Shown: in pieces, positions 47,979 through 50,497 of the stretch | Position numbering within the stretch: the stretch's first letter is position 1 | Layout: each line of letters starts with the position of its first letter | Assembly: GCA_025655595.1 (NCBI GenBank) | Contig: JAHXIO010000001.1 | Coordinates: forward strand, 186,001-250,000 | Direction: 5' to 3' | DNA from: Candidatus Thiodiazotropha sp. (ex Monitilora ramsayi) | GTDB taxonomy: Bacteria; Pseudomonadota; Gammaproteobacteria; Chromatiales; Chromatiaceae | Length of the DNA stretch: 64,000 nucleotides | Translations under genes and position numbers: made by a program | Notes under the pieces: model-generated | Seen by the model: only the letters and a program-made list of their open reading frames with translations | Told to the model about the DNA's origin: nothing | Database searches by the model: none

Positions 47979-48998
<1,020 letters not shown>

Positions 48999-49077: not shown

Positions 49078-49458
49078 ATGAGTCAAAAAACCTCGACTTC
49101 CCCCCATATCTTCGATGTAGACGAGGCGACATATGAGGAGAAGGTCATCCAGGCTTCCCGCCATCAACCCATACTGGTCGACTTCTGGGCCGAATGGTGC
49201 GCCCCCTGTATCTCACTCTCACCGGCCCTGGAGCGCGTGATCGATGAACTGGAAGGCCTGGTGTTGCTTGCCAAGGTGGAAGTCGATGACAACATGCGCC
49301 TTGCGGGACGATACCGACTGAGGGGGTTTCCCACTGTGATTCTGTTTGTCGACGGTGAGGAGGCGGGCCGATTCCACGGTTCCCGGGCTACACACTGGCT
49401 GCGGGAGTGGATCGATGAGCACCTGGGGGATTATCTCGCTCATGCCAGCCGGGAGTGA
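49078..49458 (+). CDS. Thioredoxin-family protein with WCAPC active site
   Basis: ILVDFWAEWCAPCISLSPALERVIDEL...RYRLRGFPTVILFVDGEEAGRFHG. Confidence 0.92.
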   Translation: MSQKTSTSPHIFDVDEATYEEKVIQASRHQPILVDFWAEWCAPCISLSPALERVIDELEGLVLLAKVEVDDNMRLAGRYRLRGFPTVILFVDGEEAGRFHGSRATHWLREWIDEHLGDYLAHASRE

Positions 49459-49591
49459 ATTCGGTGGAAACCGGCGAATCTTGTTCGCAGTTTAAACGAA
49501 TAACGAGGCTTTCAGATGGGCTTTCGGCAATAAAAATACATAAATAACTGTAAGTTAGATAATTTTTTTCGTTTTTTAAATATAATAATAA

Positions 49592-49717
49592 ATAAGACTA
49601 AAGGTCTAGCTGGGACTGCCGCCACTATGGGTAACAGGCAGTATTGTAGGTTTCGATCCTCCTCCGGCGCTAAAACAAGCGCTTTAGGCCCACCCCCTCC
49701 CCGGGTGGGCCTTTTTT
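49592..49717 (+). ncRNA. Candidate small regulatory RNA with exposed anti-SD (UCCUCCUCC) tract
   Basis: TATAAT at 49581-49586; hairpin ACTGCC(49615-49620)/GGCAGT(49637-49642); TCCTCCTCC 49657-49665; hairpin GCGCT/AGCGC (49667-49682); intrinsic terminator 49687-49717; no plausible ORF in this region. Confidence 0.6.
49687..49717 (+). terminator. Intrinsic terminator
   Basis: GGCCCACCC-CCTCCCC-GGGTGGGCC, 9-bp stem, followed by TTTTTT. Confidence 0.92.
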
Positions 49718-50287
49718 CTAGCTCCTTACGACTTCTCCGCTGATGGCATTCCTGATCGGCGTGGGGCGGGTGAGACCGCCGGTTTGACCGTGTACTATCC
49801 AGTCAACCTCATCTCCGCAACGCAGCCTGACCTGTAACGCGGTGCGCGCCGGTTGTCTACCGCTCAGGTTTGCACTGGTGGAGACGAGTGGCATGCCGGC
49901 GACGCGGCAGAGGGCCGAGGCAATGGGGTGATCGGTCACCCGCATGGCCAGGGTCGAGTGTTGTCCGGTCAGCCATGAGGGTGTCTGCTTGGCCGCTGGC
50001 AGCAGCCAGGTGATGGCGCCAGGCCAGTGAGAGAGTACGTGATCGAGTGTGGCCTGAGGCAGATCTCCAACGAGGGGTTTCAAGCGATCAAAACTGTCCG
50101 CGATCAGTATCATGCCTTTCTCGACAGGCCGTTGCTTGAGTGCCAGGAGCCGGAGAACCGCCGCTTCGTCGAACGGGTTACAACCCAGGCCGAAGACGGC
50201 TTCAGTGGGATAGGCCACAATGGCTCCCATCTGAAGCATGCGGGCGGCGGTTCGAATACGCCAGGTATCAATTGACTGTGTCGTCAT
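49718..50287 (-). CDS. tsaC: Sua5/YciO/YrdC-type L-threonylcarbamoyladenylate synthase
   Basis: GAIVAYPTEAVFGLGCNPFDEAAVLRLLALKQRPVEKGMILIADSFDRL; start at MTTQSIDTW (50287). Confidence 0.92.
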   Translation of the reverse strand: MTTQSIDTWRIRTAARMLQMGAIVAYPTEAVFGLGCNPFDEAAVLRLLALKQRPVEKGMILIADSFDRLKPLVGDLPQATLDHVLSHWPGAITWLLPAAKQTPSWLTGQHSTLAMRVTDHPIASALCRVAGMPLVSTSANLSGRQPARTALQVRLRCGDEVDWIVHGQTGGLTRPTPIRNAISGEVVRS

Positions 50288-50497
50288 ATCGTATCGTACG
50301 GAATGTAAACTGAAGGGGAATTCTACTATCCCATCGCACAAAATGTTGGATACAGCTGTGTGTAATGACCGTATCGCCTTACACATGACTCAACGTCTCT
50401 GCAGGATACCACTGTTTTATCTTGATACAGTTTGTGAAATAGTTAGCGTCCGCCCCACGCGGGAGGCGTGGTACGCAGATGACGTCTGGGAACTTGT

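Follow-up and report, generated by a model that had tools for sequence, protein, structure and literature searches.

A candidate sigma28-linked small RNA with an anti-Shine–Dalgarno module in Candidatus Thiodiazotropha and other Gammaproteobacteria

CU-rich and FliA-dependent small RNAs

In the parts of PMC5688073 considered here, the Rfam family RF02278 (Betaproteobacteria toxic sRNA) comprises double-hairpin or 'toxic' small RNAs (sRNAs), such as NcS03, NcS05, NcS27 and NcS62. The Burkholderia double-hairpin RNAs display CU-rich unpaired stretches that are predicted to cover ribosome-binding sites (RBSs), and overexpression of NcS27 in Burkholderia attenuates growth (same parts of PMC5688073). 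The Bordetella S17S, as presented in the sections of PMC11722255 used here, is a 67-nt RNA that starts near a C/U-rich loop, represses BP2158, contains a block of 27 nt that is shared among Betaproteobacteria, and is apparently processed from S17L. In Alphaproteobacteria, unpaired regions of the ar14/NfeR1, CcsR and 'cuckoo' RNAs carry CCUCCUCCC anti-Shine–Dalgarno (anti-SD) motifs (PMC3927594, PMC10746234), with CcsR occurring together with a DUF1127 gene under RpoH (PMC10253847). In the literature searched, the sigma28-dependent sRNAs comprise UhpU, MotR, FliX and FlgO of E. coli, which are expressed under FliA (PMC10578931) and conserved among some Enterobacteriaceae, and a single FliA-dependent one of C. 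jejuni, CJnc170/FlmR (PMC11187230).

Here, we describe a real, conserved and apparently undescribed sRNA gene in the 4.68 Mb genome of a lucinid-clam symbiont, Candidatus Thiodiazotropha sp. (ex Monitilora ramsayi), found in a 64,000-nucleotide stretch of DNA (hereinafter the window). Its 3′ module is like that of the CU-rich anti-SD sRNAs and its promoter like those of the E. coli flagellar sRNAs, a combination that we have not found described; an open-access literature search likewise recovered no paper joining Thiodiazotropha and small RNA.

An Rfam scan of the window and 12 homologue loci recovered no family at threshold, in agreement with an initial annotation that had considered the RNA to be of no known family. 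Sub-threshold matches were recovered to anti-hemB, Betaproteobacteria toxic sRNA, ar14 and CcsR1. The best of these in the window is to RF02837 (anti-hemB, Burkholderia), with 24 bits (E 0.001) and at most 28.5 bits in homologues, as compared to a threshold of 49.5. While hemB is close to many homologues, the window RNA, unlike RF02837, is not antisense to that gene, which lies past the thioredoxin gene (trx). RF02278 scores 23.3 bits in the window and at most 30.1 in homologues (threshold 50), and its order of a CU-rich stretch, a hairpin and a terminator is reproduced in the window sRNA. Thus, as far as the parts of the two sources used here extend, the latter is like RF02278 and S17S in being a short RNA that combines a CU-rich anti-RBS stretch with a small hairpin and a terminator. 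However, by the same parts a Burkholderia genome has several copies of the former as against the one strong copy in our source genome, and a sigma28 promoter goes without mention for either in those portions of PMC5688073 and PMC11722255.

The ar14 and CcsR1 models score 22.6 bits (threshold 58.8) and 12 bits, respectively, in the window. The likeness to ar14/NfeR1, CcsR and the 'cuckoo' RNAs lies in the anti-SD motif in an unpaired region. In contrast to NfeR1, with its at least three motif-bearing hairpins and sigma70 promoter, and to the several hairpins each with an unpaired CCUCCUCCC that typify the ar14/cuckoo type, the window sRNA has one CCUCCUCC between structures and a C-rich terminator loop. 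With the sigma28-dependent sRNAs it shares a promoter directly upstream, as judged by sequence motif and fixed spacing; yet, while the E. coli versions are UTR-derived, it is intergenic, possesses a conserved anti-SD module and occurs across many further families.

Anatomy of the locus

The gene sits in the gap between trx and tsaC (Table 1), as initially annotated, on the same strand as trx and about 170 nt downstream of it. The existence of an unannotated, conserved non-coding RNA gene at this position was borne out by matches in all 21 other genomes of the genus.

Table 1. Features of the sRNA locus in the window
Feature	Position	Strand	Basis or remark
hemB	47979..48983	-	PF00490; next gene past trx
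trx (thioredoxin gene)	49078..49458	+	PF00085; neighbour upstream of sRNA
TATAAT	49581..49586	+	judged not a promoter: unconserved in place, no + strand sigma70-like site
sigma28 -35 element TAAAGGTC	49599..49606	+	T(A/C)AAG in 22/22 genus loci; exact 11-nt spacer
sigma28 -10 element GCCGCCAC	49618..49625	+	G(C/T)CG in 22/22 genus loci
sRNA	49632..49717	+	predicted, 86 nt; conservation, covariance-model matches, no conserved ORF
anti-Shine–Dalgarno tract UCCUCCUCC	49657..49665	+	invariant in genus
hairpin 1 GGCGCU/AGCGCU	49666..49683	+	GCGC pairs in 31/31 representatives' folds
intrinsic terminator, C-rich loop CCUCCCC + T6	49687..49717	+	pair covariation; terminator scan
tsaC	49718..50386	-	PF01300; convergent with sRNA, stop at 49718

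From 5′ to 3′, the predicted RNA is composed of a variable part, a mostly single-stranded AUCCUCCUCC, an invariant GCGC hairpin and a covarying terminator. The latter three accord with the initial annotation: the anti-SD tract reads TCCTCCTCC in the DNA, its second hairpin is present as GGCGCT/AGCGCT, and the GC-rich terminator has the letters GGCCCACCC-CCTCCCC-GGGTGGGCC-T6. The outer pairs of the hairpin vary between G-U, G-C and A-U among 31 representatives. The comparison across relatives that it had called for shows a conserved core and covarying terminator pairs: 7 of the 9 pairs exhibit changes on both sides among 23 sequences, a level attained in 0–1 of 500 shuffles, and a terminator scan found one terminator as against 0.3 expected. 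The fold of a 90-nt RNA is more stable than those of its shuffles (z -2.6). The proposed upstream hairpin, ACTGCC/GGCAGT, is present in letters but does not stand as a part of the RNA, since its left arm falls inside the conserved -10 box and is thus probably not transcribed. When the 3′ module is folded by itself, 22 of the 31 representatives leave CCUCCUCC fully unpaired, while in the predicted full-length RNA the mean unpaired probability of the tract is 0.39 in the window and 0.28–0.98 in relatives; the tract may hence be partly paired in the modeled full-length RNA. A search across homologues recovered no conserved reading frame, and on that ground we rejected the reading of the locus as a small ORF.

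The predicted sigma28 promoter and the spread of the sRNA

Directly upstream of the predicted RNA is T(A/C)AAG followed at a fixed distance by G(C/T)CG, which we take to be the classical sigma28 promoter; its conserved form is TMAAGnnn-N11-GCCGnnAn (49599–49625). The window's -10 box, GCCGCCAC, is weaker than the consensus GCCGATAA. With this promoter, a start about 6 nt past the -10 box would yield an RNA of about 86 nt, rather than the ~125 nt earlier estimated. The same box is found in the source genome upstream of flgK, cheW and a flagellin-like gene, the last identified by eye. The initial annotation overlooked this promoter, and with it the link to the flagellar regulon, as well as the spread over families and the likeness to the betaproteobacterial CU-rich sRNAs.

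The motif T[AC]AAG-N14-G[CT]CG is present within 60 nt at 35 of 48 distinct loci, as compared to 0.004 expected per 60 nt, with the qualification that the 48 are not all independent and that L074 probably matches by chance; most of the remaining 13 have a sigma28 motif further upstream. A promoter score of at least 19 is reached at spacer 11 by 27 of 31 family representatives, by none of the 31 at spacers 7–10 and 12–15, by 0.1% of shuffled sequence and by 0.35% of flanking windows. In the other families of the class, 21 of the 22 homologues tested have, at most 300 nt away, a motif with the 11-nt spacer that scores at least 18.5, a value attained by 0.3% of their flanking windows. The weights behind these scores were set by hand after the motif had been seen, the spacer scan and the flanking windows serving as safeguards. 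One homologue near tsaC at the start of a contig (L102, genome G489) shows no recognizable sigma28 box, with FliA present in the genome, which may reflect either a promoter change or a truncated contig; at L332, the stretch is ended by the contig end. Separately, sigma28-like sites are located in the source genome (L028, L034 and L043) upstream of genes that, judged by eye, encode HD-GYP- or HDOD-like signaling proteins, which suggests that its sigma28 regulon is broader than flagella.

The sRNA is present in 22 of 22 Candidatus Thiodiazotropha genomes examined, the other 21 matching at E 1e-15 to 1e-32, with the conserved blocks being GATCCTCCTCCGGCGCT (an invariant core), the hairpin's second arm, and the terminator. 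About a dozen further families of Gammaproteobacteria have homologues with the same kind of promoter. When 387 genomes of the class were searched with R1, a model of the 3′ module, many matches were recovered, and inspection of these revealed homologues in other families with CTCCTCCG(A/G)CGC, the hairpin and the terminator. A two-hairpin model (R2) recovered 22 genomes at E<=1e-7, rising to 27 with the cut-off relaxed to E<=1e-4; as it was built partly from the R1 class matches, its scores for those are not independent, a limitation that does not apply to the tests on promoter, FliA and synteny. Five weak model matches (L350, L354–L357) are unlike the 3′ module and without the sigma28 motif. 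A pattern scan of named genomes added a few further homologues, the matches listed being mostly due to chance. As for genomic neighbors, trx adjoins the sRNA in many other genera, though not at every homologue, tsaC is nearby in other genera and some other families, and hemB in other genera and several other families. In many genera, as well as in several other families, homologues have HemB, TsaC or Trx nearby, which argues for the common descent of these RNAs.

Each of the 27 genomes of the class in which a homologue was recovered (E<=1e-4) encodes FliA, as compared to 219 of 387 overall (p=1e-7); within the family, FliA is encoded by 30 of the 32 sRNA-bearing genomes (R1 E<=2e-8), as compared to 47 of 86 without the sRNA (p=2.5e-5); these p-values ignore species kinship and, the genomes being related, the test is not fully independent. 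Completeness is 40% and 82% for the two exceptions among the sRNA-bearing family genomes, and a fragment of FliA is present in one of the two (G035).

Proposed function, targets and competing explanations

Drawing on the promoter motif and its spacing, the 3′ module, the terminator, the co-occurrence with FliA and an hfq gene in the genome, we posit, with a probability of roughly 0.7, that this is a trans-acting sRNA of the flagellar regulon that masks the strong SDs of selected mRNAs. Under this proposal, FliA (sigma28) would transcribe the sRNA from its own promoter from the predicted start, and transcription would stop at the intrinsic terminator. The resulting RNA would expose the AUCCUCCUCC stretch ahead of the small hairpin and the terminator, and this stretch, probably assisted by bound Hfq, would pair with GGAGGA-type SD sequences, thereby blocking the translation of selected mRNAs while flagella are being made. 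The SD targeting put forward in the initial annotation is thus retained as a prediction.

An RNA derived from the trx 3′ UTR, with an RNase cutting read-through transcripts near the CU-rich stretch and the sigma28 promoter as a second source, would fit the placement of trx upstream on the same strand, ~170 nt away and kept in many genera, and has a precedent in the apparent origin of S17S from S17L (parts of PMC11722255 used here). Nevertheless, we regard it as unlikely, because the exactly spaced sigma28 box is kept across families even where there is no nearby Trx match, and some homologues lack a trx neighbor.

For the flagellar-regulon sRNA, the best start-codon antisense match to CGGAGGAGGATCGAAA outside the sRNA gene, among the matches examined, is CTGAGGAGGATCGAAA, which directly abuts the ATG of a LolA-like (PF17131) gene in G000, G005, G018 and G014. 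The 14 contiguous base pairs with the sRNA at this start region are found in only 4 of the 22 genus genomes, and an SD of the AGGAGGAT or AGGAGGATT/G type in 22 of 22. On this complementarity, the LolA-like gene is the best candidate among predicted targets. It lies at L255:1501-2475 (G000:C2:470869-471843) and is followed by the gene for a second secreted-looking protein. Ranking of duplexes within the flagellar stretches gave no clear flagellar target; fliA and flhG were rejected for weak and variable pairing, and fliQ for the loss of complementarity in G015. GGAGGAT precedes an ATG at 80 places in the source genome, as compared to 15 in a reversed control, with the genes concerned including those for a porin, a DctP solute-binding protein, fliQ and a SoxB-like protein (by eye only); this is too many to single out targets.

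The above excess, together with a tract that is close to a pure anti-SD and the growth attenuation by overexpressed NcS27 (parts of PMC5688073 used here), might also be read as pointing to a broad damper of translation or a decoy, i.e., an unspecific anti-SD that would slow initiation on strong-SD mRNAs at large instead of acting on a defined set of targets. We judge this slightly less probable still than a 3′ UTR origin, given that most members of the genus share ~15 invariant nt (UUUCGAUCCUCCUCC), beyond what a generic anti-SD needs, and that the match at one gene is both long and exactly placed. That the locus is merely a terminator or tRNA remnant without a trans function is very improbable: although the locus does contain a terminator, TTCGATCC is similar to a tRNA T-arm and one model match (L072) is a real tRNA-Ala, a terminator needs neither an invariant single-stranded tract nor an upstream sigma28 promoter, Rfam offers no match at threshold in the window, and a tRNA origin was rejected as L072 is a separate tRNA-Ala and the other ten of the eleven class matches scanned contain no tRNA. 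We give as little credence to a sigma70-transcribed RNA of ~125 nt starting past the TATAAT, as initially annotated: the letters are there, but they are absent from the aligned position in relatives, a + strand scan found no sigma70-like site, and it is the fixed-spacing sigma28 box that is conserved instead.

Returning to the flagellar-regulon sRNA, the retention of the promoter, the anti-SD module and often the neighbors across about a dozen families indicates that it may be a core component of the flagellar programme in these organisms, which include uncultured animal symbionts. It offers a testable link between motility and how other genes are translated, and might bridge the CU-rich sRNAs of Alpha-, Beta- and Gammaproteobacteria. 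More speculatively, and as a view that we hold only tentatively, it could be an ancient gammaproteobacterial flagellar sRNA that, made under FliA, ties motility to a broad repression of strong-SD mRNAs during flagellar assembly and has an ancestry common with the betaproteobacterial anti-hemB and toxic sRNAs.

The predicted length of the RNA ranges from about 80 to 290 nt in relatives. Long forms (~250–290 nt) are seen in other families at L333, L343, L345, L348, L351, L352 and L353, and they have in common a 5′ domain, absent from the short form of the window, in which a motif resembling GGUGUGAA..UCC....GG-AUCCUGA..ACACC may fold into a hairpin. In addition, two genomes of one genus each show two adjacent R1 matches on one short stretch (L448-type: G448:C74:53-168 and G488:C83:350-454), which may be tandem copies.
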